In this document: in pieces, positions 199 to 23,490 of the stretch | How positions within the stretch are numbered: the stretch's first letter is position 1 | How the letters are laid out: every line of letters begins with the position of its first letter | Assembly (NCBI RefSeq): GCF_000455225.1 | Contig: NZ_HF954537.1 | Span: 1,299,588 to 1,359,880, forward strand | Reading direction: 5' to 3' | Source of the DNA: Megasphaera massiliensis | GTDB lineage: Bacteria; Bacillota; Negativicutes; Veillonellales; Megasphaeraceae | DNA: 60,293 nt | Made by a program: the position numbers and the translations under genes | The notes under the pieces: generated by a model | Databases searched by the model: none | What the model was told of the DNA's origin: nothing | What the model saw: the letters and a program-made list of their open reading frames with translations, nothing else

Positions 199-3100
199 TT
201 ACCAGTCAAGCAAATATTGGTATTGATTCTTGTCGCTTTTGTTCATACTTGACACTGTTCTTCCTTGGGTATCGAGCTTTTTCTTCTTCTGCTCTGCTTT
301 TACAGTGGAAGGCTTGATACCAGCTTCCTTTAGTTTGCGTGCATTTTCTCCTGTCGGATTCTCGATATACTCATCAACAAGCTGTTGTTTTTTGCTACTT
401 GCCTTTTTCTTTTCGGAAGACAATATTGATTGAATTAAATAAGAATCGCTTTCATCTGTAGATTGGAATCCCATTCCACGAAGTAATCGCTGATATGGTG
501 TCGTGTATTCTTGGTTTGTACGTCCGCGCTTACCAACAGATTCTCCTTGTGTAGCCATCAATAAGTTCCCTAGTCCAGGCGATATATTACGCACCTGTTT
601 TATCCAACCATCCCCACCATACGCGCTTTTAGTGACATTAAACAACGTACTAGCAGCAGGTCCAAACAAGCTATTCAGGTCATCTGGAACTGCATCACCG
701 ATACCAACTCGACTCGTAATATCAATGTTTGCGAAAGCACCAATACCGTACATACCTATCTTGGCAATAGGCTTGAGTGATGGATATTTTTCAGCAAGTT
801 CAATTAAGCTCTTCTTGGCTTCTTTTTCCGGATCATCACCGGTAATTCCCATAATTAGCAATCCCAGAATGTTTGCAAATGGAATCTGGAACAAACCAGC
901 CATGGCAAAATAGGTACCCCAGAAAATAGTCTTTTGCTTTTTAGTGGTTTCCTTGCCAAAAAATGGAAGAAAGTCTTTCATTGCTTCTAACTGTTTAATA
1001 GGATACTTCTTGAATTGCAATAATATCTGCGAAGCTATCGAACCACGCCGAAAAATTCCAGGTGCATCATGGACTCCATAATCGAAGTTTGATTTACGGT
1101 TTACGTCTTTCGCGTATCTAATAGCCTCTTCATGACTCATGCTACGTTTGCGGGCAGCTTCATAAGCCGCTAAAGTTACGCCACGGCGAACAATCCCCTC
1201 TGACTCTTTAAAAAGAATCATTCCCCGGTTAGCCCATTTCCCAGCAGAGAATTTCCCATACCCAGCTCCACTATCAAGTCCAATATCATTCAATACATTA
1301 GTTTGACGGAGTATCTTTAAGTCGTGCAAACTATATTTCCGGTGTGCTCCCTTTAACAACGCCTTCCATAAGGTTGATATGTTGCCAGTATACGCAGCCG
1401 CATTGGCAACCTGTAAAATGTTTAACATCGCAGAAGACACATTAAGGAATCCTAGTTTGGCAATGGAAATTTTATTGGTAATGGAATTTGCAAGGGATAC
1501 CGCGGCTCGATCTCCGAAGCGTGCGTTGACCCATTTACCGATAGCAGGTGTGGCGTTCAGCAAATCATTTAACTGCTTTTCAAGCGTAGATGGATTACCA
1601 TTAATATCATTAATATATTCTTTAATATAATTGGGCAATCCGTGATACTCATTATCAAACCTACCAAAAAGGCGTTCAAACAAAGAAATCGCTTGAGGTT
1701 TGAATTTACTTTCCATAGCTACATATCGCGATGTGCTGTTGAAATAATGTCGCAATACCCATTCTATTTCTTGTTCATAGCCATCCGCCCCCGTCCGTTG
1801 CATGAAGTTACCAAAGAAACGATGACGCCCTTTTTTCTTGACAATCCCGTCCAGCATTTCTTTGGCTTCATACAATGTCAAACTATGTTTGTCGGCTATT
1901 TTTTTTGCCATCCGGTAGAAATCCTTATCGCCAACCGTGGTAGCATATTGGCTTTCATCTAACCCGACTTCTCCAAAATCAAAGACTTTAGGGGCGATTG
2001 TTATTTTCCAATCTCCCTCGTTATTTTTTTTGAGCATCTCTTCGTTTTCAGCTTGCCATTTAATGGCATTTTTTGTAGCTTCACGAATAGTACGCCCACT
2101 AGAAACTACGGTAGATTTACCGTGACTATCTACACACCTTACCATATATTCATGGAAGAAATGGGGAATATAGCCTTTGCGGTTATGAATGTCCGGTACC
2201 CCTTCACGAGTAATTACTTTCCAATGCTTCTTCCCGTCCATGGGGCCTTCTTTCGTTGGAGCCTTTTCCAAGATTTGGATGTTATCGTCATTTTCTAATG
2301 ATTTCAATTCATACTCATTGACTAAATAATGAGACTGCCAATTTCCATGCTCCTTATAAGAAACGAGGGTACTGCCATCATCTTGCTTCGTTTCGCGAAG
2401 TATTTCAACGAACTTATTGTTCCTCAACTCATCCAACTTATGGCCAGCAAAATGTCCTGTTTTTGTCTTGGCTTGTTTTCTAGTTTCGTTGAGTTGGTTA
2501 TAAGCCTTGCGGAAGAGATTGCGAATTGCCAAATAACTGTCAATGACTTTTTCGTTATATCCTTGTTTATGAAGTTCCTCACGTGTATATTCCTTGCCTT
2601 CCATATCACCGGACCATAATAACTCTTGCAAGGTAGCTTTATCTTTCTTGCTTAAATCTAATGCGGAATCCAAATGTCGCTGGTAATCAGCCCGTAATTT
2701 AGTAAGAAGGTTCATGGCATCGTCCGCCATTTTAAAGAACGGTTTGAAATATTTCTTCTTTTCTGCAATTCTTGACGGAGATTGCAACAAGGTTCGATGA
2801 ACGCCGATGTCGTTTTCCGATTCTTGTTTCTGAGATATTTCAATATGGCTCATGAAGCGTTTTTTGGCCTCATTGCCTATTTTCTGTTCTTGTTGTCGAA
2901 TAGAATAATGGATTGGATCCTCTTTTTTTAACTTGCCTAAATCTGTTTCGTCTGCTATAATATTAGACAAATTAAAGGAATCGACCACCAGTGGACCATT
3001 AGGCGTCCGGGCTGAGGTATTTATACCAGTAAGCCAGTGGTCGGTTCTTTTTTTGTTTATGTAAATACAATCGCCACGCATTAACCTATCGATATACCAT

Positions 3101-6100
3101 GTATTGTTTGGGTGATTATTGCCTTTTCCGATTGTTTTTCCATAAACACTTTTTATAATGTTACCCACAATTTTATTTCCGTCTCTCGTCTTCTGTTCCA
3201 TAACAAACGGGATCATAATAGTTGCCCCATCATTATCTTTTAAATCAACGACTACAATTTTTGAAGATATATCTTCAACACCTTTGTTGTCAACAGCTTT
3301 TAAAATAAACATAGGGTCTGCAATCCTGCGAGGTATTTCTTTTAGTACTTCTGGAGAAATTTCGAGCCCGTGTTTCCAATGCAATACTTTATCTAATACG
3401 CGTGGGGAAATATACACTGGCAACATTTTTTCACCAATCAAATTTAAAACTAGAGGAGTATCCATCACCCGCACATACTCATCATACGACAACTTGTGAT
3501 TCATAAAGTCGTCTATTTTTTTTGCAAAGGACTGCATATCCTCTTTTAATTTTCTTTTTGCGTACATCGAGTAACTTCTGGGCTGACTACCATCGCTGTT
3601 TTCTGGTCGTTCCCACACTCTGCCCAACTCAATTTTCTGGAACACGTCGTGTACGTTCTCTGTACGAGTGAATATTATCTTCATCTTTGCGGCAAAATCC
3701 TTAATCTTCTGGAAGAGTTTGCCCCACGCCGTGCCGCGGCCATGTTTACGAGCTTCCACCCATTCGGCATATTTGTTGGCACGGTCTTCGGCGTTCGGGA
3801 TAGATTTAGTAATGGCCGCCTTTTCTTCATTCGTCAATACAGCTTGTTCGGCAACGTGATAAGCTTCATGAAACACTGTACCTTGCCGGCTACCCTGTGC
3901 CAAAGCTATATACGCATCTTTTCCGTGTGTCTTTGCAAAACCTTCTACCACTACATTGTCATTTCCGTCAATGGAGTGGTCTTTTTTTGCTCTGGACAAC
4001 TCATCCTCTGTCAAAACTATTTGATTCTTAACGTCTACAACGATGTGTGAGCCGTTTGGCATGGTAAATGTAATGCGGTCGCCGTATTCTTTGATATCTT
4101 TCGCCGTAGGAAATGCTTCTTTAATGCCAGCCTTTAATTCTTCTTTGGACTGAATAATGGCCTCGCCAGCCTTACGGGCGGAATATTGAGTATCTTCCGA
4201 CATACTTCCGATACGATCCGGCATGGTTCTGTTTTCGAGTGAGTCGAACAAGTCATTGATATTGTTGGCCATTAATTCAATCGGCCCTCGTGCTTCTGTA
4301 TTGGCAATTTCACGAGTACTTTCGTCGGTGTATTTATCGATAACGTAGATCTTTGTCCCGACGCTTGTTCCAGCTCTTTCAAATGTTACGCTTGGCAGTT
4401 TTATTTCGGCCATGATAACAGCATCTGGAACGCCTCTATCTTCCTTACGTTTTGCTTCCTGGTCGCCATACATCCATTTGTCAAAATGTTTCTGGCAAGA
4501 AGGACCATCCGGAACTATTGCAATGATTCGACCGCCGTCTTTCAAATGTCGGTAGGCTTTTGCAAGATGTTCAATGGCCGTCTTCCCGCCTTTGCCGAAC
4601 GGCGGATTCATAACGATCCCGTCGAATTTGTTGTGCAGGTCAAGGTTTTCAAAGTAGTTTTCAACAACTTTAGCATTGGAAACATTACGCATGAGTTTGG
4701 GACTCAAGTCATGCGACGGTTCGACAACGGTATTATAGGTGTCGTTCGGCATCCACCTAGCGATAGCGCCGTCACCGGCAGACGGTTCAAGCAAACTGTC
4801 ACCTGGTTTGCTGTCGAGCCATTCAACCATTTTAAGCCCTAGCGGTTCCGGAGTCGCAAAGAAATCTATCCCTTCACGGGCTTTTGTCCGCGCGTTTCGT
4901 TTCTGCTTGCCAAAGTATACGCCTTTAGCACGGTCAAAGTCTGTCGTTTCATGCTGATTCTTATAGTCGATAGCTTTGCCACCAGTGCCTTCGGTTGCAC
5001 TTCCAGGAAGGTATTTGTGCCATTCGTCGCCTTCTTGAGATTCTTCAAAGGCTTGTACATATGACGCTTTTAATTCACGAGCCATATCACCCAACGCAAG
5101 ATTTTCGACGGTTGCCGCGCGTTCTGCTAGTTTAGTAGCAAATGCAGCCTGTTCCATATATGTACCTGTGTTTAGATACCGGAACATAGCATTTGATTTA
5201 TTCCCTACACGGTAAATACGCCCTTCCTGTTGGATAGCTTCACTAGGTTTTGTAGGAAGTCCTAAATTAATCAATACACGTTGGTGCTTCCCGGTTGTAT
5301 CATGCAAGGATACGCCCGCTTGACCTGCATCAGACTGTATAAGAATTACTTTAGTTTTGCTTTTATCATCATTGAAAGATTTTTTATTGGCTTCACGTTG
5401 TTTCTTGCTAAGCGTACCATTATACAACACAAGACTATCGCCAAATGCGGTTGTAAGAGCATTGATTGGAGATTCAAGGCCGTTTAAGTCGAGCCTCATT
5501 AAATCTGGCCGTTCTTGGCTAAACTTATCGTATTGTTCAAGGACCTTCCCCGCCAACTCATGGTCTGCTGCACGTTCTAGCTGGCTTCTTAATTCGGAAC
5601 TCATGACAAAGGGATTGTTGGCACCGCCCTTATTGTAGTTGTGAAAAACAACTACTCTCTTTCCAGACTTCAAATATTCTTTGATGAGTGGCACCGCCTG
5701 TTTAGCTTTGATTGCTTCAAGAAGATACAACTTCTTAAACCCTTTAAACTGGTTGTTCAGGAATTCATATAAGTCTCTATATTCAGGCTTGTTTCTAAAC
5801 CATTCAAAGGCCTCATCAATCGTTTTTCCAACTCCGGCATCAATGCGAATAAAGCCACGATCGTAGTCATATTCAGATGATAACATACGTCCGTGTATAG
5901 CCCCTGATTCAACGAGTTTGTGATTGAACTGCCGTTCCAAAAGGTCGGTATCTACTTCGGAGCCAGGGCGTTCCAAGCGATTGTAACGCATTTGATAGCC
6001 AAAATTTTCCATGTAGAACGTCTCTTTGCCATTAGCATTGTTATAGCCCTGTTCTTCCATAGGTCCATAATCGCTATAGTTGAAGAGATATCCGTTCGCA

Positions 6101-9100
6101 TAGTCGAGATTAGCAACATGTTCAAAGGGCGTAGCTGACAGGAACACGACTTTAGATTGATTACGCTTAGCAAATTCAGCTTTATCTTCGGTTTCAAAGG
6201 CCTTTAGTTTTCCTCTAAGGCCTTGTACTTGTTCCTGCAATTCACGAGCTTCATCCTCAAGACTGCTTATCTTTTTATCGATTTCAGCATCCGGTAACTT
6301 CCCTTTACGGAGAACGTCACTTCGTTCTTTATCTAGTTTATCGATATTATCATGGATTGACTTTATTTTGGCAGTTAACTTCGTAATCGGCTCATCTAGT
6401 TCGGGGTGTTTATCGTGATGATACCGCTGGAATCCATCTTCATGCCCCGTAATTGCACGTACTAAGTTAAGCGCTTGTGTCGGTGTAGCCTTGGATCCAC
6501 CCATTAATTTTTGACTTTCGTCTGTGATTACTAAATCAAATTCACGATTTACAAGTACATGGTTATCTCCAATATTTGCATATGTAGCCGTAACAGGGCC
6601 TTTGCCTGCATCTTGTTTATTTTCGAGTCGCGTTAACTTAATACCAAAAGATCTTTCTGCATCCCCCTCCCATTGATTTAACACGCCGTCACTAGGAGCA
6701 ATGATAAGGATATTTGTTTTGCCTGCATCCATAAATCGTTTGACAATACCTAGCCCCGTATAAGTTTTGCCTGTTCCGGTGCCATTAGTAAACATCATAC
6801 CATTATGGTTTTTAAAACGATCTTCTGCAAGCATCACGTCTTCAGCCTGTTCTGGAAAAAGCATAGGCAATGCTTTTTTTATGCTATCAAGAGTGCTGTC
6901 ACGTTGCTCTTTTTGTACCTTTTCTATCGGGTTTTCATGCTTGGGTCTGTTTTCAACAGCTCTAACAGATTCGTCATTTCCTTTTGATTCATCGTCGGGC
7001 AATCCCTCAAAGCTATCTCTAACGCTTCTTGATAGCTCAACACTTCTGGAGCGTCGATCCGAGGATTTTTCAGTTTGTACTGTGCGATTGCTAGTCTCTC
7101 CGCTAACAGCGGTGCCACGATTTGAAACGCCGACATCGCCATTTTTTCGTTCTTCGGGTTCTTTTCCTGTCGATGTAAAATCTCGTCCGCCGCTGCGCAC
7201 GGGTCCTCCGCTTTGAACACTACCTTGCCCCAATACGTTTTCACTGGCCCCTTCGCCAGATCGTGAAGCCAACTTATCGGTGCTGCTATTAACATTGTTC
7301 GTCGCTCCTTTCAATTCTTCAACACTAGGATAGTTTATAACTGCATTATACACCGCGTCAAAGTATCTTGCATTACGTGCGCCTAATGTCCCGATAAATT
7401 CACGACGCAAAAGGACTTTGTCAGTCATTCCATGGTCATACATTGATCCGACATACTTAACCGCCGCCGTAAACCGCTTTTCGTCAAGGCTGGCATTTTT
7501 AGGCATCGATTGTAACGAAGTCCAAACCGAACGCAAAAACGGTTCGCCTTGTGGCATGGTTTCCTTCATAGCCCTTGCCCAACTAGCAAATGTATTCAGT
7601 CCGCGTTGTACATGAATGGCTCCTAGCTTAACCATGTGGTACATGAGCGTTGGATTAAACATAGGATTAGAGCTAATTTTAGAAAGTTCAGCAAGAATGG
7701 CTTTCTTTTCAGCTTCCAATGCCGCGTCGCTATCATCTAACAAATGGAACGTCTTGTTTATTGTTTCATTGTCCTTCGGAGTCGTGGCCTTTTTAGGTGT
7801 TTCCTGTGTTTCTCTAGGGTTTGGTTTTTTATTCTGTTTGACTGTTTCTTTTGTCGTTTTATTTGCAGGACTAGGACTATCAAAGAATCCCTTTTTAGAA
7901 GGTGTGTTTTTTGGCTTGTCGTGTTTTTTAATACCAAATGCGGCCATAACGGCTTCTTCGGCATCAGCCACACTTCCAAATCGAGCATCTTCTCTAGCAA
8001 GCTCGCTTGTATTATTTTTAGCGGCGTCTTTTACTTTCTCTTGTGCATCGTCCTTAGCACTTACAACCGCTTCCTTCTGAGCTTTCTTTTCTTTGCGTTT
8101 CTTGGACGCTTCTACACTCATTTGATTAGCGACAGCCATTGCGTCATTAACCATGCTGTTTACCTGAGTCCGTTCGTCATTGCTTAACTGCTTGTCAGTC
8201 TTGACGAGTTCCATGTCATCGAACGTGCCGTATGTAGCATGGCCAGCATCCATCAAGACACGTTTCAGTTTATCCTGTGTCTGCTTCGGAGTCAGCTCTT
8301 TATTCTGTAACTTGTTGGAAATATCGTCAATGACCTTTCTGAACGGATCAGTATGAGATGACTGTACTTTTGGCGTTTCCTGTTCAGACTTTTTACTTTG
8401 CTCTTTTTTTGCCTTTAATTCACGGATGTGTTCTCTTAAAGCCCCTGATGTAATTTCATCGTTAGCCTCTATAAGATCAATATGTATCTGATGATGTTCA
8501 TCGTCATTCCTGTCTACCTTATTTGCTGTTTCGGCATCATGGAATTCTTTTTTTAGTTCATCTAGTTGTTTTTCAGCTTCCTTATATGTGATTTTTCCTG
8601 ACTTTGCGTCGTCACGAGTTGTATTTACACGGTCATTTAAATCCTTGTAATAGGCTAATTTTTCCCGTTCTTCGCTTGTAATGGTATCGGCTGAATGATT
8701 TATTTCTTCTTGTACGTCACCTTCGGTACTTTTTTCGGAAACGGTACTTTGCGCGTCTTTACTTTCAGCTTGCTGACGTTCGGCGTTCCGGCTGTTATCT
8801 TCGTTGCCTTTTTCATTTGTATCGACTTCCTTTCTTGAAGTAACCATCTTGGCATTTTCTGGTTTAATGTGTTTGAATTTATCTTTTAGAGATTGTCCGT
8901 TGGCTTGCTCGTAAAGATTTGCAACCGCCTGTTCGGCTCCATCATAAAGCAGATTCATAGCAGGGTTATCCTTAAAGTTCATGTTCCACTCGTTAAGTGC
9001 TGATTCCCCGCCAGCGCTTTTTATTGCACCATCTATGCGTTTTGCAAACTCGTTCCGAACTTGATTATGGATAATAGCTCTCGCTTCTGCTTCTGTTTTA

Positions 9101-12100
9101 GCATTCTCAAAGGCCCTATGGAGCTGATTTACGTCAAATTTCATCGTCCACGGTCCATCCTTGCCAACGGCCGTACTCCATGTAGTAATTTCCCCGTTTT
9201 TTAGACCGCCTCTCCACTGATTGCCGTCTTCTTTATAAACTGCTTTGAAAGATTCTGGCTTTTCTTTTTTGGTCGGAATATCGTTTTGTTCATTCTGTCT
9301 TTGTGTGGAGACGTCACTATCCGTAGGACTCTGTACAAGTTCCTGCTTGTTGTTGGGAGAAGGCGTAGCAGTCGTTTTTATGGTCGTTTTGGCGGCTTCT
9401 CTTGCCTGTGCCTGGGACTGCTGCAACTGGTCAGCCAATGAAGCCTGCTGTTCTTCTGTTCCGTTTCTGAACGTATCCATATATTGTTTGAATTGCGGAT
9501 GATTGCGGTCAAACGTAGACAGAATACGGCCCAACTGGGCGTGTGGTGCTTCCGTCTGATTCTTTGGTGTAACTTTGTCGGCGGCTTTTGTTGTAGGCGT
9601 TGCATTATCGGCAATTGCCTGTTTAACGGCATCACCAATTTCTTTCTTATAATTGACCTTAATGTAGTTTCTGTTTTCTGGAGTGTCTACGAATTTCGGC
9701 TGTCCATTAGCATCGTTCGTAAACATGCCGTCCAACGTATTCACTTCATCAATGTCTTGAGAGCTATCCAGAACATTTTTAGCTACATCCGGAACAACGT
9801 CATCGGCGGTTACTTTATTTTCTCCGTTAAGTTTGGCCTGATCTTCCTGTGCTGCTTTCCGTGCTGCCTGCGCTTCCTGATCAATTTCAGCGTTTGTACG
9901 CTCCATAGAATCGTCATTCATAATGTCGTTCATAGCAGCATTGCTATCAGCCTGAATTTGATTCATTTCGCTATCAAACTGACTTTGCATTCTTTCAATA
10001 TCGTTGTCTGATGAGTTATTAGAAACGGTCGCATTGCCAGAAATAGGGCCTCCATTATTAGAAAAATGTACATGGCCGCCAGTTGCATTAGCGCTAGGGT
10101 GTTCGTATTCATCAAGCGGAGTCAGTCCCAATTCCTGCCCGCGTTGCATGAGCCATTCACGAGCATCTTTATTCTGTTCAAGAAAATCGGATGCAGTGTC
10201 AAAGGCATTGCCGGTATTATGGTACGAGGCGTTCGGGTCCCCGTCTCTTTTCATCGATGTAATAGAAAGTCGCTGTCCGAATTGTTTATAGAAGTCATGC
10301 ACAAGAATTTGTAATTTGTTGATTGTATCCTGGGTTTCACCTTCTACGTTTGGAGCATCAGCTTCACTGATATCATAGTAGGGATTTCCATTTTCATCGA
10401 GAACGTTACCGTCATAGCCGCCACTAGAATTTCCAACGTCACCCATATTGTCATAGTTATTTTTAACCATGTCCCGATACTGTTCAGCTTCTGGGCCAGA
10501 ACCATTGTAAGCACGAACGCCTGCCCATACGTCACCGTTTTCACCGGCAATTTTAGCTTTAAGGATAGCCATACCGACCATGGCGTTTTGATACGGGTCT
10601 GTTTTCCAATCCGGATATTGTTTGTCGAGTCCTAAATCTTCAACGGTTTCGTCCTGTGCCTGCATAATGCCATATACTCCATCATGAGGTTCGGGCATCC
10701 CGATTGCATTAACATCATCGCCTCCACTTTCGCGGGCTGCAATGGCCAGGCCCAACCGCGGGTCTACGTCAGAATCATTAGCCGCTTGAATGACTGCATT
10801 AACCATCGAATTACCGGTATTAGCATTCATGCTGCTGCGTGTAACAGGCTGTTTTTGTGCAGCCGTTTCTTTTTGAGCTTTAATGACACTGTTATAAGCG
10901 TTGTTGACTTCTTCTGGAGTGCCATTTCGGATAACACCAACAAGCCAGTCATAGTTTTCCTGGCCAATCTGGTCTACCGTATTATTGTTCAAGAAATTAT
11001 AAATTTCTTCTTTCTGAGTGAATGCATCAAAATCAGCCATAGACTGATCTATAGAGTCCTGCGCATTATCATTTTGACTTTCTGCATTATCAGATGCAAG
11101 TCTAGCAATAGCTGAAACGTTAGGGTCTTTACTGTTAGAAATATATTCGGCAGCTGCTTGCTTCGTATTAAATACAGGGTTGCCACTTTCATCGGTCGTA
11201 ATATTAGGTCTAGAAGACATAGACGCAGCAATATGTCCCGGTGTACTCATGCCAATACCACCAATAGCCCCCGCTAAAAAACTGTCTCGCTGATCATCCG
11301 TCCATGCATATGGATTGAACGGGTTCCCCCAAGGCTTGTCTTCTGCATTGTTTTGAATAACCTGCTGTATATTTTCCTGCATCCCTTCGTTGGCTGCACC
11401 CAACGCTACGCCAGGAATCGATCTAGGGATAGCCATTCCAAGACGTTTAGCAGCGCTTTCGGTTACACTTGGTCGGAAAACTTTCGCGCCAGCACCTTTC
11501 ATCAAGGCATATTCAACCGGGCTTGTAACAAGTCCTAATGCCATATTTTCAGCCATTACAGGAGCGCCTTTAAGCATTGCTTGACCATAACTAAGGCCCT
11601 CATCCTGCAAATCTTTTACGGTATTCCCATATTCACCAGCCGATTCAAGAAGGTTCTTACCAATGGCACCTTTAACCATATCCGGTGCAATTTCTTTAAA
11701 CGCCGCCGATCCAGCTACTTTCCCCAGTCCGACGCGACTAAGAGCCTTTCCCATAACACCAGCACCGCGGCCAACAATACTTGCGGGGACTGCTTCGGCC
11801 GCTGGCACCATTGCAACGGTCGAGCCAAACCCCTGACCTAACCAAAACGCAGCTTGGTTAGGATTTGTCAAAATATTATCGCCATATTGTGAGTCCCATT
11901 CGTCACGTACTGGTTTCCAATAATTTTCATAGGCGTCGACTGCGTTTTGTACGCTGTCAATCCCAACGAGCGAAAGTGGAGAGCCCATGGCGTTCGCCGC
12001 GCCTTCTGCAAAGCCCATCCCAAAGGCGGTACCGTGTGGATATTCTTGAGCATTCTTTTTAAATCGTTGTTGTGTGGTTTCTCCCCACACATCCCACGGT

Positions 12101-12333
12101 TTAACATACCCGCCATTATACGTCGGGTATTGTGCAAGTGCCTCTGCACGACCTGGAGCTATAAAGTTAGCAGCAGCATTGGCCCACGAAGTAAGGTTAG
12201 GAAGAAACGAGTCTCCCGACTGTTGGCCAGACGAATCCGCGGCTGCGGACTGTTCTTTGTAGTAATCCAGATTTTTATCGCTTTCTAAGTCACCGCCATT
12301 CACCATGCGGACGAACTTATCATAATATGGCAT
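199..12333 (-). CDS. giant polyvalent ejected virion protein (transglycosylase, M15-like peptidase, helicase, DNA methyltransferase, zincin, MuF_C-like nuclease)
   Basis: At 4,044 residues this takes a fifth of the phage. Domains I can see, in order: a lytic transglycosylase at about 505-630 (catalytic-type ARESGG, then GVYGIMQ); a D,D-peptidase M15-like domain at about 665-760 (HNTGNAFD and GHVHFS); a long Lys/Glu/Asn-rich linker at about 800-1700; an SF2 helicase at about 1830-2400 (Walker A NGTGTGKT near 1850, DESQ near 1935, QQEGRIYRVG near 2366); an N6-adenine-type methyltransferase at about 2490-2620 (EPSAGDG, NPPFG near 2575); a zincin-like HEAYH near 2822; a region like the MuF C-terminal nuclease fold at about 2970-3120; and a helical, partly hydrophobic C-terminus resembling large polyvalent-protein domains (LPD38-like). 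Polyvalent proteins of the P1 DarB kind are packaged and ejected with the DNA. The position, last in the late operon after other ejection-type proteins, fits. The likely roles are crossing the wall and protecting the entering DNA; this is inference. It starts with ATG 11 nt after a GGAG. Confidence 0.85.
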   Translation of the reverse strand: MPYYDKFVRMVNGGDLESDKNLDYYKEQSAAADSSGQQSGDSFLPNLTSWANAAANFIAPGRAEALAQYPTYNGGYVKPWDVWGETTQQRFKKNAQEYPHGTAFGMGFAEGAANAMGSPLSLVGIDSVQNAVDAYENYWKPVRDEWDSQYGDNILTNPNQAAFWLGQGFGSTVAMVPAAEAVPASIVGRGAGVMGKALSRVGLGKVAGSAAFKEIAPDMVKGAIGKNLLESAGEYGNTVKDLQDEGLSYGQAMLKGAPVMAENMALGLVTSPVEYALMKGAGAKVFRPSVTESAAKRLGMAIPRSIPGVALGAANEGMQENIQQVIQNNAEDKPWGNPFNPYAWTDDQRDSFLAGAIGGIGMSTPGHIAASMSSRPNITTDESGNPVFNTKQAAAEYISNSKDPNVSAIARLASDNAESQNDNAQDSIDQSMADFDAFTQKEEIYNFLNNNTVDQIGQENYDWLVGVIRNGTPEEVNNAYNSVIKAQKETAAQKQPVTRSSMNANTGNSMVNAVIQAANDSDVDPRLGLAIAARESGGDDVNAIGMPEPHDGVYGIMQAQDETVEDLGLDKQYPDWKTDPYQNAMVGMAILKAKIAGENGDVWAGVRAYNGSGPEAEQYRDMVKNNYDNMGDVGNSSGGYDGNVLDENGNPYYDISEADAPNVEGETQDTINKLQILVHDFYKQFGQRLSITSMKRDGDPNASYHNTGNAFDTASDFLEQNKDAREWLMQRGQELGLTPLDEYEHPSANATGGHVHFSNNGGPISGNATVSNNSSDNDIERMQSQFDSEMNQIQADSNAAMNDIMNDDSMERTNAEIDQEAQAARKAAQEDQAKLNGENKVTADDVVPDVAKNVLDSSQDIDEVNTLDGMFTNDANGQPKFVDTPENRNYIKVNYKKEIGDAVKQAIADNATPTTKAADKVTPKNQTEAPHAQLGRILSTFDRNHPQFKQYMDTFRNGTEEQQASLADQLQQSQAQAREAAKTTIKTTATPSPNNKQELVQSPTDSDVSTQRQNEQNDIPTKKEKPESFKAVYKEDGNQWRGGLKNGEITTWSTAVGKDGPWTMKFDVNQLHRAFENAKTEAEARAIIHNQVRNEFAKRIDGAIKSAGGESALNEWNMNFKDNPAMNLLYDGAEQAVANLYEQANGQSLKDKFKHIKPENAKMVTSRKEVDTNEKGNEDNSRNAERQQAESKDAQSTVSEKSTEGDVQEEINHSADTITSEEREKLAYYKDLNDRVNTTRDDAKSGKITYKEAEKQLDELKKEFHDAETANKVDRNDDEHHQIHIDLIEANDEITSGALREHIRELKAKKEQSKKSEQETPKVQSSHTDPFRKVIDDISNKLQNKELTPKQTQDKLKRVLMDAGHATYGTFDDMELVKTDKQLSNDERTQVNSMVNDAMAVANQMSVEASKKRKEKKAQKEAVVSAKDDAQEKVKDAAKNNTSELAREDARFGSVADAEEAVMAAFGIKKHDKPKNTPSKKGFFDSPSPANKTTKETVKQNKKPNPRETQETPKKATTPKDNETINKTFHLLDDSDAALEAEKKAILAELSKISSNPMFNPTLMYHMVKLGAIHVQRGLNTFASWARAMKETMPQGEPFLRSVWTSLQSMPKNASLDEKRFTAAVKYVGSMYDHGMTDKVLLRREFIGTLGARNARYFDAVYNAVINYPSVEELKGATNNVNSSTDKLASRSGEGASENVLGQGSVQSGGPVRSGGRDFTSTGKEPEERKNGDVGVSNRGTAVSGETSNRTVQTEKSSDRRSRSVELSRSVRDSFEGLPDDESKGNDESVRAVENRPKHENPIEKVQKEQRDSTLDSIKKALPMLFPEQAEDVMLAEDRFKNHNGMMFTNGTGTGKTYTGLGIVKRFMDAGKTNILIIAPSDGVLNQWEGDAERSFGIKLTRLENKQDAGKGPVTATYANIGDNHVLVNREFDLVITDESQKLMGGSKATPTQALNLVRAITGHEDGFQRYHHDKHPELDEPITKLTAKIKSIHDNIDKLDKERSDVLRKGKLPDAEIDKKISSLEDEARELQEQVQGLRGKLKAFETEDKAEFAKRNQSKVVFLSATPFEHVANLDYANGYLFNYSDYGPMEEQGYNNANGKETFYMENFGYQMRYNRLERPGSEVDTDLLERQFNHKLVESGAIHGRMLSSEYDYDRGFIRIDAGVGKTIDEAFEWFRNKPEYRDLYEFLNNQFKGFKKLYLLEAIKAKQAVPLIKEYLKSGKRVVVFHNYNKGGANNPFVMSSELRSQLERAADHELAGKVLEQYDKFSQERPDLMRLDLNGLESPINALTTAFGDSLVLYNGTLSKKQREANKKSFNDDKSKTKVILIQSDAGQAGVSLHDTTGKHQRVLINLGLPTKPSEAIQQEGRIYRVGNKSNAMFRYLNTGTYMEQAAFATKLAERAATVENLALGDMARELKASYVQAFEESQEGDEWHKYLPGSATEGTGGKAIDYKNQHETTDFDRAKGVYFGKQKRNARTKAREGIDFFATPEPLGLKMVEWLDSKPGDSLLEPSAGDGAIARWMPNDTYNTVVEPSHDLSPKLMRNVSNAKVVENYFENLDLHNKFDGIVMNPPFGKGGKTAIEHLAKAYRHLKDGGRIIAIVPDGPSCQKHFDKWMYGDQEAKRKEDRGVPDAVIMAEIKLPSVTFERAGTSVGTKIYVIDKYTDESTREIANTEARGPIELMANNINDLFDSLENRTMPDRIGSMSEDTQYSARKAGEAIIQSKEELKAGIKEAFPTAKDIKEYGDRITFTMPNGSHIVVDVKNQIVLTEDELSRAKKDHSIDGNDNVVVEGFAKTHGKDAYIALAQGSRQGTVFHEAYHVAEQAVLTNEEKAAITKSIPNAEDRANKYAEWVEARKHGRGTAWGKLFQKIKDFAAKMKIIFTRTENVHDVFQKIELGRVWERPENSDGSQPRSYSMYAKRKLKEDMQSFAKKIDDFMNHKLSYDEYVRVMDTPLVLNLIGEKMLPVYISPRVLDKVLHWKHGLEISPEVLKEIPRRIADPMFILKAVDNKGVEDISSKIVVVDLKDNDGATIMIPFVMEQKTRDGNKIVGNIIKSVYGKTIGKGNNHPNNTWYIDRLMRGDCIYINKKRTDHWLTGINTSARTPNGPLVVDSFNLSNIIADETDLGKLKKEDPIHYSIRQQEQKIGNEAKKRFMSHIEISQKQESENDIGVHRTLLQSPSRIAEKKKYFKPFFKMADDAMNLLTKLRADYQRHLDSALDLSKKDKATLQELLWSGDMEGKEYTREELHKQGYNEKVIDSYLAIRNLFRKAYNQLNETRKQAKTKTGHFAGHKLDELRNNKFVEILRETKQDDGSTLVSYKEHGNWQSHYLVNEYELKSLENDDNIQILEKAPTKEGPMDGKKHWKVITREGVPDIHNRKGYIPHFFHEYMVRCVDSHGKSTVVSSGRTIREATKNAIKWQAENEEMLKKNNEGDWKITIAPKVFDFGEVGLDESQYATTVGDKDFYRMAKKIADKHSLTLYEAKEMLDGIVKKKGRHRFFGNFMQRTGADGYEQEIEWVLRHYFNSTSRYVAMESKFKPQAISLFERLFGRFDNEYHGLPNYIKEYINDINGNPSTLEKQLNDLLNATPAIGKWVNARFGDRAAVSLANSITNKISIAKLGFLNVSSAMLNILQVANAAAYTGNISTLWKALLKGAHRKYSLHDLKILRQTNVLNDIGLDSGAGYGKFSAGKWANRGMILFKESEGIVRRGVTLAAYEAARKRSMSHEEAIRYAKDVNRKSNFDYGVHDAPGIFRRGSIASQILLQFKKYPIKQLEAMKDFLPFFGKETTKKQKTIFWGTYFAMAGLFQIPFANILGLLIMGITGDDPEKEAKKSLIELAEKYPSLKPIAKIGMYGIGAFANIDITSRVGIGDAVPDDLNSLFGPAASTLFNVTKSAYGGDGWIKQVRNISPGLGNLLMATQGESVGKRGRTNQEYTTPYQRLLRGMGFQSTDESDSYLIQSILSSEKKKASSKKQQLVDEYIENPTGENARKLKEAGIKPSTVKAEQKKKKLDTQGRTVSSMNKSDKNQYQYLLDW

Positions 12334-14638: not shown

Positions 14639-15754
14639 TTATTCCCCCTCTACCCAATTATCGGTACTACCGCCTTTAGCGATAAATCCATCGGCATAAT
14701 AATTGTTGTCACCGGTAAGCTGCAAATCATATACTTTTCGCTCTCCGGAATAAACCATATTAACGACGCGGCCCTTACCTTTAAGCGTCGTACCAAGAGT
14801 CATATTGCCGATTTCTTTCCAGCCGTCGTCAGTAAGCAACGGTTGCGTCAATGTTGCGCTAACATAATTCGTGTTCACGCCGTCCTTACATACGAGGTTC
14901 CAAACATCGTTGTATTTAGGCGTAAGAGTTTGTTTGACCGTCTCAACCGTTTCGGTCCCGTCTTCATGCGGACAAAGTACGGCATCGCCAACTTTAACGT
15001 CTGTAATTTCTTTTTCGGTTCCATCTTCCATACGGATTTTGGTTTCGGGCGCAAAACAGAAAATAGTTGCATTGCTTGCAAGGCCTGTAAGAATCCCGCC
15101 AAACAAACCGCCGCCGCTTGTGCTTTGTGTCTGCTTTGTCGTTCCCTTTCCTGCTAGGCTAGATAATGCCCCGGTCGTTGCACCATTAAGTCCCAAGGAT
15201 GCATTCCACAAGTTAATTGCCGGCTGTTGTGCTCCTTCCTGCGCAGCTGCGGCCGTTGCAATCGGCTGCCCGGATGCATCGATATTTTGACCGTAAATGT
15301 TAGCTAACTGGGATAAGGTATTGTTCCAATTTTGAGCCATAGCATCACTAGCACTATCGCTAATCCCTTTCATCCCTGTATTCATCACGGAGCTATTAAC
15401 GACGCCTCTAGCCCCCATATCCTGCAAAAGATTGCCCATGGAGTTATTAACGCCGCTCTTAATAGAGTTTTCCATCGCCGTTTGATAGGTGGCTGGAATC
15501 TGACCTTGTGCCAAACCTCTAAGGCCATTTTGTCCCCACTGGATTTGACTAAGAGCGTTTTTCATGAGCTGATTATAATCAACCTGTGTATCGCCCAGGG
15601 AGTTATACAACATATTGCCGGCAACGTCATTGAGCTTTTTTGCGTTCGGCATGACGTACTTAGAGTATTCTAAGGCCTGTTGCTGCATAGCTTTTTCTTC
15701 CGCTGTCGGTGTATAAGTTTGCGTATTGGAGCTTGATCCGCCTTTTTTGCCCAT
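14639..15754 (-). CDS. virion protein with a C-terminal Hint (hedgehog/intein) domain
   Basis: 371 residues. Residues 1-230 are Ala/Gly/Asn/Gln-rich and helical, as in short-tailed phage ejection proteins, and end in a glycine-rich stretch. A Hint domain starts at about 232 with CFAPETKIRMEDG, the usual Cys1 start, followed by KVGDAVLC and a block resembling motif B (TLTQPLLTDDGW). Two usual catalytic features look altered: the block-B histidine (normally T-x-x-H) reads T-L-T-Q, and the end reads YYADGFIAKGG rather than ending in His-Asn. Protein splicing is therefore unlikely. Cys1-driven cleavage or a purely structural role remains possible. About 12 residues follow the domain. It lies between a GNAT-like gene and the 760-residue protein. 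Confidence 0.75.
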   Translation of the reverse strand: MGKKGGSSSNTQTYTPTAEEKAMQQQALEYSKYVMPNAKKLNDVAGNMLYNSLGDTQVDYNQLMKNALSQIQWGQNGLRGLAQGQIPATYQTAMENSIKSGVNNSMGNLLQDMGARGVVNSSVMNTGMKGISDSASDAMAQNWNNTLSQLANIYGQNIDASGQPIATAAAAQEGAQQPAINLWNASLGLNGATTGALSSLAGKGTTKQTQSTSGGGLFGGILTGLASNATIFCFAPETKIRMEDGTEKEITDVKVGDAVLCPHEDGTETVETVKQTLTPKYNDVWNLVCKDGVNTNYVSATLTQPLLTDDGWKEIGNMTLGTTLKGKGRVVNMVYSGERKVYDLQLTGDNNYYADGFIAKGGSTDNWVEGE

Positions 15755-19380: not shown

Positions 19381-20391
19381 ATGAAATTACCTAATGGATA
19401 CGGAACTTGCTATAAACTATCTGGGAATCGGAGGAGGCCGTTTGTCGTGAAAAAGACGATAGACGGAAGACAAAAGATACTGGGCTACTTCGATACGTTT
19501 GCTCATGGCATCGCCTACCTTTCTTCTGTCAATGAATCGCCATTAATCGACGATAGTATTACCTTCGCTGAACTGTTTCTACGTTGGAAACAGTTGAAAT
19601 ATAGTCGGTTATCCGTATCCAGTTGCAAGAGCTATGACAATGCCTTTAGACACTGCCACAAGCTGCATAAACTGCCTTTTCGTAGTATCCGATATGGTCA
19701 TTTGCAAGACGTTATCGACGACATACAGGCAGGATACTGCACACAAAAGAAGTGTCGCGGACTATTAGAACAACTATACCGTCACGCAATCAAGTACGAT
19801 ATCGTTAGCACCGACTACGCAAGATATATTGAGCTAAAACCACACATTAAGAAATACAAGAAAAAGCCATTCACGGTCAGACAAAGAAATAAGCTTTGGC
19901 GTGCCGTAGATGATAATCCGGATGTCATTGATGTACTCATCCTTATTTATACAGGCCTTCGAATTGGAGAATATTTGCGACTCACGCCACACGATGTGAA
20001 GTGGCGCAGCCACTACTTTATCGTCCAACAATCTAAAACAGCATCAGGCACCGGACGCGCTGTACCCATTCATAAAAACATTTATAAATGGTTTGTATCT
20101 CGTAAAGAACAAGACTACATCTGTCAGCACGAAAACGGGACTCCATATACCTATGATTCATTTAGACGACGGTTTGACTCCGTTATGAAGTCTTTCGGGA
20201 TGCACCACACACCACACGAGTGTCGACATACTCTAGCCTCAATGCTTGATAGCGTCGGAGCTAACGACACGGCCATAAAGAAAATACTGGGTCATGCCTG
20301 CCGCGGTGTAACAAAACACGACTACACACATAAAACAATTCGTGAGTTGCGGAAGGCTATTGACGCGGTTTACCGTTGGGGAGTTGGCTAG
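19381..20391 (+). CDS. tyrosine recombinase, probable tail-fibre invertase
   Basis: 336 residues. All catalytic residues are visible: Arg in TGLRIGE, Lys in QSKTASG, His and Arg in HECRHT, His in ILGHA, and Tyr in KHDYTH. The N-terminal 50 residues are basic and resemble an arm-binding domain; a core-binding domain follows. It is the only plus-strand gene within the late region. It lies beside two fibre genes with silent cassettes and is far from the phage ends, while a separate integrase sits at the right end. I infer DNA inversion (an Rci-like role) rather than integration. The last codons (RWGVG, stop) are encoded inside crossover repeat B. A start-proximal AAAGGA supports the ATG at 19381. 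Its promoter must lie within the divergent small membrane gene. Confidence 0.85.
   Translation: MKLPNGYGTCYKLSGNRRRPFVVKKTIDGRQKILGYFDTFAHGIAYLSSVNESPLIDDSITFAELFLRWKQLKYSRLSVSSCKSYDNAFRHCHKLHKLPFRSIRYGHLQDVIDDIQAGYCTQKKCRGLLEQLYRHAIKYDIVSTDYARYIELKPHIKKYKKKPFTVRQRNKLWRAVDDNPDVIDVLILIYTGLRIGEYLRLTPHDVKWRSHYFIVQQSKTASGTGRAVPIHKNIYKWFVSRKEQDYICQHENGTPYTYDSFRRRFDSVMKSFGMHHTPHECRHTLASMLDSVGANDTAIKKILGHACRGVTKHDYTHKTIRELRKAIDAVYRWGVG
20373..20385 (+). repeat. crossover repeat B of fibre 2 shufflon
   Basis: CCGTTGGGGAGTT, identical to repeats C and A. It occupies the last codons of the recombinase gene in one frame and begins silent cassette 1 in another (reading VGEL). Confidence 0.75.
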
Positions 20392-20587
20392 TCATTATCC
20401 GCGCGTTTCATGCGACTCTGGCATGCCTTCCGGTGAACCTTCTAGGGAACTATTCAAAACCGTTGACTGCCGGGACCAATACGGGCCACGCTCGTTGCCT
20501 AACGCGTGGGGGAAGATTGGCAATGATGAATATCACAATAACATCTCTCCGTCAAAGGCCGCATACGCCTGGCAACGTACTATGTAG
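20373..20587 (+). other. silent fibre C-terminal cassette 1 (fibre 2)
   Basis: An open frame without its own start or ribosome site: it reads VGELASH, then about 60 residues ending in SPSKAAYAWQRTM and a stop at 20585-20587. The ending matches the C-terminus of the active fibre 2 (GNGYHYNVSPCKSVYVWYRIS). It faces opposite to the active gene, so an inversion between repeats B and A would fuse it to the fibre 2 N-terminus in frame. Confidence 0.8.
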
Positions 20588-20600
20588 CCGTTGGGGAGTT
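20588..20600 (+). repeat. crossover repeat C of fibre 2 shufflon
   Basis: A second plus-strand copy of CCGTTGGGGAGTT, directly after the stop codon of cassette 1. It reads VGEL in the cassette frame. Confidence 0.75.
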
Positions 20601-20835
20601 AGCCTCGCACGAACATTACAATTCCATTTGGAACAAAAATAATGAAACAGGTGTTAGTGGCTCTAACGGCGGTTATCTGCTAAGCGGAGTTATTCAATGG
20701 AGTAATACAACATTCACAACTGCTGGCGGAAGATACGGTGATACGTGCGGAATAACCAAGCCAACTGGCAATGATAATTACCATACAAACATATCTCCTT
20801 GTAAGGCTGTATATGTTTGGAAAAGAATCAGCTAA
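20588..20835 (+). other. silent fibre C-terminal cassette 2 (fibre 2)
   Basis: An open frame with no start of its own: VGELASHEHYNSIW..., then a Gly/Thr/Asn-rich body, ending NISPCKAVYVWKRIS and stop at 20833-20835. It shares the constant-side motif and the C-terminal signature with the active fibre 2 but has a different middle. It is convergent with the active fibre gene, and the two stop regions overlap by 8 bp. Confidence 0.8.
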
Positions 20836-21343
20836 TCCGATACCACACATATACTGATTTACACGGAGAAACATTATAGTGATAGCCGTTACCACCAGTT
20901 GCGGTTACGAGCTGTTGTTGATTAGTTTTTCCGTTAGCGTATTCAACTGCATTGCCGTTAGTTTGTTGAGGTATTTGATAGGTGCCAGAGTTATATCTAA
21001 AAGATACGGCCCACATCCAAAATGGAATTTCGTGCTGATGAGACGGCAACTCCCCAACGGTTAATTGATGCTCAAATTCACCGTACTTTTGACCGGCCTT
21101 AAATTCTTTCGTCCACGTTGTACTTCCATGCTGTTCTGTAGCCTTCCCTTGCGCCACCAATGTATAGCCTGGTGTCAGTGCTTCCCAGGTCCCGCCAAAC
21201 AATTCGCTTGGGTCCGTAGGGTCATCGGAGAAATAATAGCTACCAACAGGGTGTGCCTGCAATAGAATATTTTCTATTATGCTGGCCATATTCTTGATTA
21301 TGTCGTCGACGTTTTGCGTCAAATCAATTGTATTTTTACCCAA
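20828..21343 (-). CDS. tail fibre 2 (active version)
   Basis: 171 residues. The start is a TTG at 21343, with AGAGGTGA at suitable spacing. Residues 1-95 are the constant part, including HPVGSYYFSDDPTDPSELFGGTWE, a signature of tail-collar and short-fibre tips. Residues from about 96 (VGELPSHQHEI...) are the exchangeable part, ending TGGNGYHYNVSPCKSVYVWYRIS. The junction carries repeat A, the inverted partner of repeats B and C. The protein probably contacts the host surface. The variable parts differ mainly in their middle, as expected for a receptor-binding tip. Confidence 0.8.
   Translation of the reverse strand: MGKNTIDLTQNVDDIIKNMASIIENILLQAHPVGSYYFSDDPTDPSELFGGTWEALTPGYTLVAQGKATEQHGSTTWTKEFKAGQKYGEFEHQLTVGELPSHQHEIPFWMWAVSFRYNSGTYQIPQQTNGNAVEYANGKTNQQQLVTATGGNGYHYNVSPCKSVYVWYRIS
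21048..21060 (-). repeat. crossover repeat A of fibre 2 shufflon
   Basis: A minus-strand copy of CCGTTGGGGAGTT inside the active fibre 2 gene at the constant/variable junction (TVGELPSH). It is inverted relative to repeats B and C. Confidence 0.75.
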
Positions 21344-21487
21344 ATATTTATTTCACCTCTGTTCTTAACGTGTTCTTTATTGCAGAACAAATAACAACGG
21401 TCAATCTCGTAAAATACGTAATTTACTCGTGTTATTTATTTGTTCTTTACGATAATAATCCATAAAACGGCTTAACCATGCCATTTA
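21344..21487. other. intergenic region between fibre 2 and its upstream gene
   Basis: 144 bp, AT-rich, with GTTCTT repeated near both ends (GTTCTTAACGTGTTCTTTATT and TTTGTTCTTTACG). It holds the fibre 2 ribosome site. I see no clear promoter or terminator. Confidence 0.4.
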
Positions 21488-22084
21488 TCACGTCATATAG
21501 GCTGATAGTTCAGCTTCATTTTTGCAATTATTAATTGCGTCACGGATTTTCATGAACCACTCGTAAGCCGCTATCTGCTGCTTTCTAGCCTCGTTCCCGG
21601 CTGCTATGAGCTGTTCTTTTGTTACGTCGATGAAGGCAAGGCTATTAGACGAATCGCGCACCTTATACTTACCTTTATCAGTAATAAGTGTTAAGGCCGT
21701 CTGCCATTCACGCTGGCTCTTTTCGTCCGTGCTAAATCGCAGATCGTCCACTACAACATCAGCTTCTTTTTTAGCGATGTATTTATTGTACTGAATTGAC
21801 AAGGCTTTTTCTTTTAATTCGCTTAGTGTAGGCGGTACATATTCACGCCTTGCTTTTGCTTCGATGTAGGCCGTAACATTGTCGATATAGCCTTCATACA
21901 TAGCATCAGGATAGTCTTTAAATTCATCATCTACACAACATTGTTTCTGCGTGTCATCATAGATGATTTTATTCGGGACATTGGTAATTCCGCTATCCAC
22001 TTTGAAATTATCAGCGGTGTCGCTGTACTGTTCACCTTCTTTGATGATAAGTACAGCGTTATCAATGATTTGAAAAACTCTCAT
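21488..22084 (-). CDS. DUF4376-like tail fibre assembly protein
   Basis: 198 residues from the ATG at 22084, chosen for AAAGGAG 6 nt upstream. The N-terminal half is beta-rich and acidic. The C-terminal half (about 95-195: YVPPTLSELKEKALSIQ..., DLRFSTDEKSQREWQTAL, ...YEWFMKIRDAI) matches the DUF4376 pattern seen beside phage fibres. It lies between the two fibre genes and probably helps fold or trimerise one of them. Crossover repeat E lies 21 bp upstream of the start codon, outside the ribosome site, so inversion of the fibre 1 segment would change its upstream DNA without damaging the gene. Confidence 0.65.
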   Translation of the reverse strand: MRVFQIIDNAVLIIKEGEQYSDTADNFKVDSGITNVPNKIIYDDTQKQCCVDDEFKDYPDAMYEGYIDNVTAYIEAKARREYVPPTLSELKEKALSIQYNKYIAKKEADVVVDDLRFSTDEKSQREWQTALTLITDKGKYKVRDSSNSLAFIDVTKEQLIAAGNEARKQQIAAYEWFMKIRDAINNCKNEAELSAYMT

Positions 22085-22104
22085 TTTTTCTCCTTTCAAG
22101 TTCT

Positions 22105-22115
22105 CTACCAATGAG
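22105..22115 (+). repeat. crossover repeat E of fibre 1 shufflon
   Basis: CTACCAATGAG on the plus strand, starting the first silent cassette of fibre 1 (TNEL). Its first 10 bases are identical in repeats F and D. Confidence 0.7.
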
Positions 22116-22358
22116 TTGGCCTCACACGGACATGGAGCAAGCGCCTCGACAGATAGTCATACTCATACGGCTTGGACCGTTATCGGCGGGTCCGACTTTC
22201 TGGGTGGACATAGTGGCAATAATGGTAAATGGGGTAATACTACTACAAGCCAAAATAGTCATTCGCATTCAATCAATATTTCTGCAACTGGCGGCAATGG
22301 TTATCACGAGAATAGACCGCCGTATGTTGTCGTTAACCGCTGGAAACGCACGGCATAA
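22105..22358 (+). other. silent fibre C-terminal cassette 1 (fibre 1)
   Basis: An open frame lacking a start and ribosome site: TNELASHGHGAS, then a Ser/Thr/His/Gly-rich body with repeated SHSHS-type motifs, ending NGYHENRPPYVVVNRWKRTA and a stop at 22356-22358. The ending is nearly identical to active fibre 1. Inversion between E and D would join it in frame. Confidence 0.82.
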
Positions 22359-22369
22359 CTACCAATGAA
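22359..22369 (+). repeat. crossover repeat F of fibre 1 shufflon
   Basis: CTACCAATGAA on the plus strand, placed right after the stop codon of the previous cassette. Confidence 0.7.
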
Positions 22370-22639
22370 TTGGCAATTCACGGACATGGAGCCAGTATAT
22401 CTAGCACCAGTTTAGTCGGTACGTTAGGGGCATATACATGGGACCACTTAGCTAGTGGTATTGTGTCGGCCCAAGATATGAATGGTAGTGTTAACCCAAG
22501 CGGACATTACGGGTACTACAAATATACTGTTAATGCTTCACATGGGCATTCAATTAGTCTTTCGAATACGGGCGGAAACGATCGTCATGAAAATCGTCAG
22601 CCGTATCTTGTTATTAATAGGTGGAAACGAAATGGTTAA
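22359..22639 (+). other. silent fibre C-terminal cassette 2 (fibre 1)
   Basis: An open frame: TNELAIHGHGASISS..., a distinct middle (TWDHLASGIVSAQDMNG), then HGHSISLSNTGGNDRHEN and the ending RQPYLVINRWKRNG, stop at 22637-22639. It converges on the active fibre 1 gene; the palindrome TTAA at 22636-22639 supplies a stop codon to both strands. Confidence 0.82.
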
Positions 22640-23490
22640 GCTGTTCTTCTCCATCTATTTACAACGGCGTATGGAGGCCTATTTTCATGATTTCCGTTAC
22701 CGCCTGTGTTGCTAATAGTAATGGTGTGCGAGTGGTCGCCATTCCAACTAGTGGTTTGATTATTCCAATAGTTAGCACCGCCAGCACCAGCATTTTCGTC
22801 CTTACCGTCAACAATAACGCGCAAGGTGTGATTATGACCGCCATTCGTACTTGAACTTGCACCATGTGAATGCGAAGGCATTTCATTGGTAGTGAGTTTG
22901 TGTTTAGCTTCACCGCCTGTAGCGCCAAGAGAATAACTATACGAACCGCTACTATCAGAATATGAACCACTAGATACAAGAACGCGACCACCGTCCATGA
23001 GCGACCATGTTGTTCCCGGCCATAACTTATTCGGGTCGCTACTCGTAGTAGACTCCCATATAGAGCCTACAGGGTACACAATGTCAATTACCTCTTTAAC
23101 GCTTCTTTGCTGTACCTTTTTCCACGTTCCATCGGCTGCTAAGTAGTAATCTGTTTGCGTTCCTGAGGCAGGTGCCGGTACTAGCCCTTGTTTTCCGGCT
23201 GCGTTTGAAGTTGCTCCTTTAAAATTGGTAATAGATTTAACACCACTCCCAACGGCATTATCCACATATCCTGTTGACGGCAATAATTCCCACTTAACCG
23301 GAGATAAGTTTGTCAGCAAGTACATATTATTATTATCGTCAGTCCGAACACATGTCATACCTACTTGCAGATTTTCGGTAGGGAACACTGTACCACTGAA
23401 ATTACTGGCTACAGACTGTATGTTTTTATCCGCCTTGCCTAGGTACACGTTACACGCATCAGTATCGTATAACTGGCTGTATTCCTGCAT
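22636..23490 (-). CDS. tail fibre 1 (active version)
   Basis: 284 residues. The N-terminus probably joins the virion; the middle has IVYPVGSIWESTTSSDPNKL, the tail-collar type GS-W-P motif, at about 139-158. The constant part ends near 202 (KHKLTTNEMPSH). The variable part (about 82 residues) is His/Ser/Gly-rich and ends GNHENRPPYAVVNRWRRTA, a common ending of phage receptor-binding fibres. Repeat D marks the junction. It follows the 713-residue tail protein by 4 bp in the late operon. Confidence 0.82.
   Translation of the reverse strand: MQEYSQLYDTDACNVYLGKADKNIQSVASNFSGTVFPTENLQVGMTCVRTDDNNNMYLLTNLSPVKWELLPSTGYVDNAVGSGVKSITNFKGATSNAAGKQGLVPAPASGTQTDYYLAADGTWKKVQQRSVKEVIDIVYPVGSIWESTTSSDPNKLWPGTTWSLMDGGRVLVSSGSYSDSSGSYSYSLGATGGEAKHKLTTNEMPSHSHGASSSTNGGHNHTLRVIVDGKDENAGAGGANYWNNQTTSWNGDHSHTITISNTGGNGNHENRPPYAVVNRWRRTA
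22882..22892 (-). repeat. crossover repeat D of fibre 1 shufflon
   Basis: CTACCAATGAA on the minus strand inside the active fibre 1 gene (TTNEMPSH). It is inverted relative to E and F. Confidence 0.7.

Follow-up and report, generated by a model that had tools for sequence, protein, structure and literature searches.

A probable tail fiber shufflon of two arrays beside a tyrosine recombinase in a Megasphaera massiliensis prophage

Results

Gene content of the region

The window analyzed here, a stretch of 60,293 nucleotides of the Megasphaera massiliensis genome, is part of a prophage that has a repressor, a major head protein, a terminase and an SU10-type portal. Next to two convergent tail fiber modules, and downstream of the lysis genes, is a gene for a tyrosine recombinase of 336 aa (19381-20391, plus strand), which was identified by its match to Pfam Phage_integrase (PF00589, 1.3e-18) and which we propose to be a shufflon invertase. 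The two fiber genes are both on the minus strand: fiber 2 (20828-21343), with matches to Pfam Gp10_C (1e-14) and a PHROG tail protein (5.6e-17), and fiber 1 (22636-23490), with matches to the same domain (2e-20) and to a PHROG tail protein (1.4e-22). Between them is orf207 (21488-22111, minus strand), a conserved DUF4376-like gene whose Pfam match (0.0012) is below the cut-off. A second recombinase gene, outside of the proposed shufflon (57043-58119, plus strand), was assigned as the separate prophage integrase; its product matched Phage_integrase (4.1e-18) and Arm-DNA-bind_4, and it adjoins the repressor gene (55948) and flanks host-like genes. Two other minus-strand genes were read by eye: a 4044-aa frame (199-12333), by its look a giant multi-domain phage protein with lytic transglycosylase-, helicase- and methylase-like stretches, and a virion-region protein (14639-15754) that has no PHROG match and whose internal CFAPETKIRMEDGTEKEITDVKVGDAVLC block resembles a Hint/intein-type domain.

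Two arrays of silent fiber tips

A preliminary description of this DNA had reported a 13-bp repeat at 20373, 20588 and 21048-21060, and had proposed that inversion between the last copy and either of the others would give an in-frame fiber with a new tip. Exactly three exact copies of the repeat, CCGTTGGGGAGTT, were found in the window, and we refer to them as crossover sites 1a (20373-20385, plus strand), 1b (20588-20600, plus strand) and 1c (21048-21060, minus strand). There was no fourth copy in the window at up to 2 mismatches; in shuffled sequence, with 2 mismatches allowed, the mean number of matches was 0.89. The 2.7-Mb genome has one other exact copy (C6:348386), which was rejected as a further array site because it is inside an apparent S-adenosylhomocysteine hydrolase-like housekeeping gene and so looks like a chance occurrence.

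Site 1c marks the junction between the constant part of fiber 2 (21061-21343) and its current tip (20828-21060), where it falls at the TVGEL codons. Sites 1a and 1b each head a plus-strand frame: silent tail-tip cassette 1 (20373-20587), which is open from site to stop, has ~70 aa after the site and is without an in-frame start codon of its own, and silent tail-tip cassette 2 (20588-20835), which has ~81 aa and a weak PHROG tail protein match (0.0014). Both of these promoterless frames read VGELASH, as previously noted, and both end, as fiber 2 does, with SPxKxxYxWxR. The close packing that had been remarked upon was also evident, in that the TAG stop codon of cassette 1 (20585-20587) directly abuts site 1b, and the end of cassette 2 (20835) overlaps the end of fiber 2 (20828) tail-to-tail by 8 bp. 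Computed inversion of 20588-21060 gave a complete in-frame fiber 2 of 176 aa and that of 20373-21060 one of 165 aa, the current protein being 171 aa, so the predicted outcome of inversion at either copy was upheld.

Site 1a overlaps the 3' end of the recombinase gene, as it sits within the last codons (CGT TGG GGA GTT GGC TAG). We treated this overlap as incidental because the recombinase of the nearest relative, L005, stops just before its site. It was also observed that inversion of the whole of array 1 would, as computed, alter the C-terminal tail of the recombinase, giving 336, 348 or 351 aa depending on the adjoining cassette.

The array that had been designated shufflon 1 is therefore real, but it is one of two, the second being at 22105-22892 and serving the neighboring fiber 1. 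The array 2 site, CTACCAATGA, is present as site 2a (22105-22114, plus strand), site 2b (22359-22368, plus strand) and, inside fiber 1, site 2c (22883-22892, minus strand), and the three have only 10 bp in common. Sites 2a and 2b head silent cassettes 1 (22105-22358, plus strand) and 2 (22359-22639, plus strand), and computed inversions of these gave fiber 1 proteins of 283 and 292 aa (current, 284 aa). All six tips in the two arrays are thus open, and all are in frame after computed inversion. The array 2 site is unlike that of array 1 and the array is without a recombinase of its own, so we can only propose that one enzyme works both.

The recombinase

The preliminary description had contrasted the tyrosine recombinase at this locus with the serine invertases that phages usually employ for fiber inversion. 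The enzyme class was correct, as the protein is no serine recombinase and matched PF00589 with a tyrosine catalytic set, but a tyrosine enzyme is already known for this task in the Rin systems and in the Int1 of haloviruses. The protein has arm-binding, core-binding and catalytic domains, and its chain ends a few residues past the last of these. Its catalytic residues, R194, K219, H279, R282, H305 and Y315, constitute the RKHRH pentad plus the tyrosine and are invariant in 64 relatives. In an AlphaFold2 model (pLDDT 91.7), three strands and a helix form an N-terminal domain ahead of the core-binding and catalytic domains; pLDDT there is mostly ~90, and the same region contains a conserved PNGYG..G.RRRP block. 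The arm-binding domain of the IntTn916 subgroup likewise consists of three strands and one helix (PMC8138268), and on the basis of the model the N-terminal domain is an arm-binding domain as in that subgroup. The closest fold match was Tn1549 Int (Z 19.0) over residues 59-310, the Tn1549 structure being one without the arm domain, and the beta-stranded insertion in the catalytic domain of the IntTn916 type was not resolved in the AlphaFold2 strand list. The recombinase is intact and belongs to an integrase lineage, that of the IntTn916-type arm-domain enzymes. The same genome also encodes a second prophage-type recombinase of this family (L022, contig C1), which is 39% identical and beside which no array was detected.

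Nearest relatives

The nearest relative of the window, the viral contig L005 (IMG/VR 2558309039), has the same gene order, with a recombinase that is 83% identical and an orf207 product that is 76% identical. Its array 1 has three silent cassettes and its array 2 has one, and the array 1 tips are only 31-39% identical to those of the window, which is the kind of homologous array with different tips that the preliminary description had suggested be sought. The array 1 sites of the two phages, CTGTCGGGGAA in L005 and CCGTTGGGGAG in the window, are synonymous in TVGE (GTC/GAA in L005 and GTT/GAG in the window) and are identical within each array; such uniformity inside an array, alongside divergence from phage to phage, points to matching at the DNA level. 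The next relative, L161 (55% identical), has two opposed pairs of sites, ACCGTCGATGAG and ACTATCAGTGAA, that resemble both window sites.

A search for another strain of the window's phage, with the array in the other orientation, yielded no inverted copy. In viral contigs no relatives were found of fiber 2 or of the protein at 23495, and the only relative of fiber 1 was that of L005, while among 61 genomes of the order the fiber constant region was found only in the window's own genome. In the nearest annotated phages, Butyrivibrio Idris and Fusobacterium JD-Fnp2, the recombinase has lysogeny/lysis surroundings, with no array in the stretch scanned.

These comparisons bear on whether the shufflon is real but locked, such that there is no more inversion in the window's phage, or such that the enzyme serves array 1 alone, array 2 being a relic. 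Array 2 gives this alternative some basis, since its site has diverged, there is no adjoining recombinase, the three copies in the window agree over just those 10 bp and the copies in L005 (CTATCGArGAA) differ at one core position. However, the recombinase has all of its catalytic residues, the cassettes of array 2 are intact, and a second array has been kept at the same place in both L005 and L161. We therefore regard a locked or half-relic shufflon as unlikely.

Arrays across the recombinase family

A profile search with the recombinase identified 160 further loci. In approximately 35 distinct relatives, mostly from Negativicutes prophages, a 10-bp site is repeated 3-11 times, in direct and inverted orientation, downstream of the recombinase, and several loci that were first scored as array-free proved to carry an invertible pair of opposed copies. 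The sites are of a GGGGA type, including ACAGTGGGGA, CCAGGGGGGA, CCAAGGGGGA, ACAGGGTGGA, CCACCGATGA and others. The hosts of the family include Anaerovibrio, Acidaminococcus, Phascolarctobacterium, Allisonella and other Negativicutes, and recombinases from Gallibacterium are also flanked by arrays (two opposed copies in L089). The largest arrays, in viral contigs L185, L203, L229, L188 and L194, have 8-11 sites and equally many different tips in ~2.5 kb. In a quick tree, the array-bearing recombinases were all in one group of 43 rows (SH-aLRT 93); by another split, all array loci were among 47 rows and none were among the other 57, the support for that split being weak (37). The array/no-array labels were partly spoiled by duplicate loci, and so only the broad result of the tree was used. 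By those labels, the Clostridia relatives have no arrays.

Direct evidence of rearrangement came from two prophages of one genome (L071 and L072 of G019), whose recombinases are ~39% identical to that of the window and whose arrays and surroundings are 100% identical except that cassettes have been re-ordered and inverted. The block at 479-940 in one corresponds to 721-1182 in the other, and that at 931-1182 corresponds to 731-480, inverted, with all joints exactly at the 10-bp site ACAGTGGGGA. Judging from the alignment, two successive inversions between sites would explain the difference. A switch of the active tip was considered for this pair and rejected, as the frames place the constant fiber gene at the other end; the active tip, which is Gp53-like in L071, is identical, and only silent cassettes have moved. 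A switch between silent and active states is shown across related phages, at the level of sequence comparison, by the cassette QGGSVIMSSTNISITPP, which is silent in L192 but active in L180 and L196 (84-89% aa identity). Another cassette is common to L192 and L196, where it is 100% identical and in opposite orientations.

One alternative is that the recombinase at 19381 is an ordinary prophage integrase and that the cassettes are remnants of fiber genes left by homologous recombination between phages. The family does include plain integrases without arrays (the Clostridia clade), and an arm domain, which the enzyme has, is the usual mark of an integrase (PMC8138268); nor was any inversion of the window's own array observed. 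Against this, the prophage has a separate integrase at 57043 beside the repressor, every silent cassette has an open, in-frame sequence that starts with an exact site, the layout is kept in L005, sites and arrays recur beside the ~35 relatives, and the L071/L072 breakpoints are exactly at the site. Given these observations, we consider an ordinary integrase among fiber remnants to be very unlikely.

It could also be argued that the repeats are a by-product of a conserved protein motif (TVGEL, TNE), with homologous recombination as the means of tip exchange. The fiber motif in which the sites fall is indeed conserved, and repeats so short could stem from homology of the proteins, for which array 2 is the most plausible case. 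Nevertheless, third codon positions are the same within an array and differ between phages, as described above for L005, and in most of the family arrays inspected the site encodes QWG or QGG, where the fiber C-terminal domain begins, rather than TVGE, which indicates that the DNA is conserved rather than a protein motif. In addition, the breakpoints occur at a 10-bp repeat between otherwise unlike cassettes, which is too short for homologous recombination. This explanation is thus highly improbable, and an origin of the array as a chance or protein-motif repeat was rejected based on the repeat count, the open frames, the computed inversions and the QWG/QGG frames.

Putative arm-type repeats

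Recombinase genes in the family are followed, right behind the stop codon, by a direct repeat whose period is exactly 11 bp: a repeat at lag 11 no more than 40 bp from the stop codon (at least 7/8 identity) was found for 26% of 149 genes, compared with 0-4% for the other lags from 6 to 19, and relatives have a second 11-bp-period repeat cluster 66-70 bp away. In the window and L005, where the recombinase gene and the array directly adjoin, the element is instead between fiber 2 and orf207. There, the putative arm-type direct repeat TGTTCTTAACG and TGTTCTTTA (21360-21379, plus strand, period 11) has a single copy in the window at up to 3 mismatches and is identical at 20 of 20 positions in L005; a second, degenerate putative repeat, TGTTATTTATTTGTTCTTTA (21430-21449, plus strand), is 70 bp from the first, and a spacing of 67-70 bp recurs in relatives. 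The putative arm element, TGTTCTTAACGTGTTCTTTA, has the same sequence in both phages, with its degenerate copy 70 bp further. A possible match in L238 was rejected as unrelated. The element at 21360-21449 is between the two arrays and outside both invertible segments.

Arm sites have a known role in lambda-type integrases. Based on comparative statistics and the structural model, we propose that the arm domain of the recombinase binds the repeats at 21360-21449, which may act as a fixed accessory element.

Discussion

In view of the in-frame inversions, the L005 array with different tips, the L071/L072 rearrangement and the silent/active swap between L192 and its relatives, the original reading of this locus as a tail fiber shufflon is still the best one. 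We estimate the probability at roughly 0.9 that the region is a site-specific inversion array for two tail fibers worked by the recombinase at 19381, and, as judged from the relatives, the array in the window's own phage is probably active. In the mechanism that we envisage, the recombinase would cut and rejoin DNA at the 13-bp sites embedded in the TVGEL codons, and inversion of 21048-21060 with 20373 or 20588 would swap the fiber 2 tip for a stored one while storing the old tip. Array 2 would do likewise for fiber 1, so that as many as 3 x 3 combinations could arise, and a change of tip may let the phage alter which bacterial surface gets bound. The recombinase would have descended from arm-domain (IntTn916-type) integrases; its N-terminal domain may bind the 11-bp-period repeats, and the fixed element between the arrays may then assist synapsis or favor inversion over deletion. 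More tentatively, and at somewhat less than even odds, we speculate that an arm-domain integrase lineage became a dedicated tail fiber invertase that kept its attP-like arm clusters, ~70 bp apart, as an enhancer-like element giving an inversion bias, with one enzyme and one arm element serving both arrays.

Tyrosine-recombinase shufflons for receptor-binding proteins (RBPs) are already known in phages (PMC6109161, PMC8778435). The Rin shufflon has been described from Bifidobacterium prophages (PMC6109161) and Eggerthella lenta clade 1 prophages (PMC8778435), and, as in the window, it has a phage tyrosine recombinase that adjoins the RBP gene and is distinct from the integrase. Both systems also combine a constant RBP part with dissimilar C-terminal cassettes, each of which begins with a short asymmetric repeat (11 bp and 8 bp in Rin), such that inversion gives a new RBP. 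However, the Rin site, TTCCCTAACCC, is unrelated to CCGTTGGGGAGTT, and the window differs in its two arrays for two fibers, arm-type repeats, Gp10_C-type tips and hosts that are mainly Negativicutes. Because Rin is described as being without an arm-type domain (PMC6109161), while the window enzyme has one, and because of the conserved 11-bp-period repeats near the arrays, we did not file the window system as Rin; the enzyme is set apart from Rin by description.

In the modules of haloviruses phiCh1, phiH1 and ChaoS9, a tyrosine recombinase (Int1) similarly inverts the ends of tail fiber genes, but one opposed fiber copy flanks a short Int1 (a 675 bp gene in ChaoS9) and there is no multi-cassette array facing one gene (PMC6471424). 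The window would work like Min, one of the Min, Cin and Gin systems (p15B, P1 and Mu), in that several fiber C-termini are exchanged by inversion, although those systems use serine recombinases (PMC6109161). The R64 shufflon and its Rci share with the window a tyrosine recombinase, a multi-cassette array and asymmetric sites of which one side is conserved and the other variable (PMC11852207), but R64 acts on a plasmid pilV adhesin, and Rci is without an arm domain (PMC8138268) and has an extra C-terminal domain (PMC11852207), the reverse of the window enzyme. The IntTn916 subgroup, including Tn1549 Int, is similar to the window enzyme in fold and arm-binding domain, but its known members are described as phage or ICE integrases (PMC8138268), whereas the window lineage is associated with shufflons, contrary to the rule by which mobility is predicted from an arm domain.

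In the open-access literature searched, neither shufflon recombinases with an arm domain nor arm-type repeats close to such arrays were found to be described, and the same was true of these systems in Negativicutes. The principle is known, but neither this type of enzyme nor its distribution across many gut prophages appears to have been described. An arm domain is generally taken to identify an integrase, a working rule to which the window recombinase is an exception, and the enzyme is a natural comparison for a question raised as open in the Rin paper, namely how tyrosine-recombinase shufflons favor inversion over deletion (PMC6109161). The breadth of the family (~35 loci, with up to 11 sites) could supply new orthogonal shufflon enzymes. 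Few phages of gut anaerobes form plaques, which makes receptor switching in this group difficult to investigate. In the present case every tip in the repertoire is readable from the genome, and hypotheses on host range thereby become testable.
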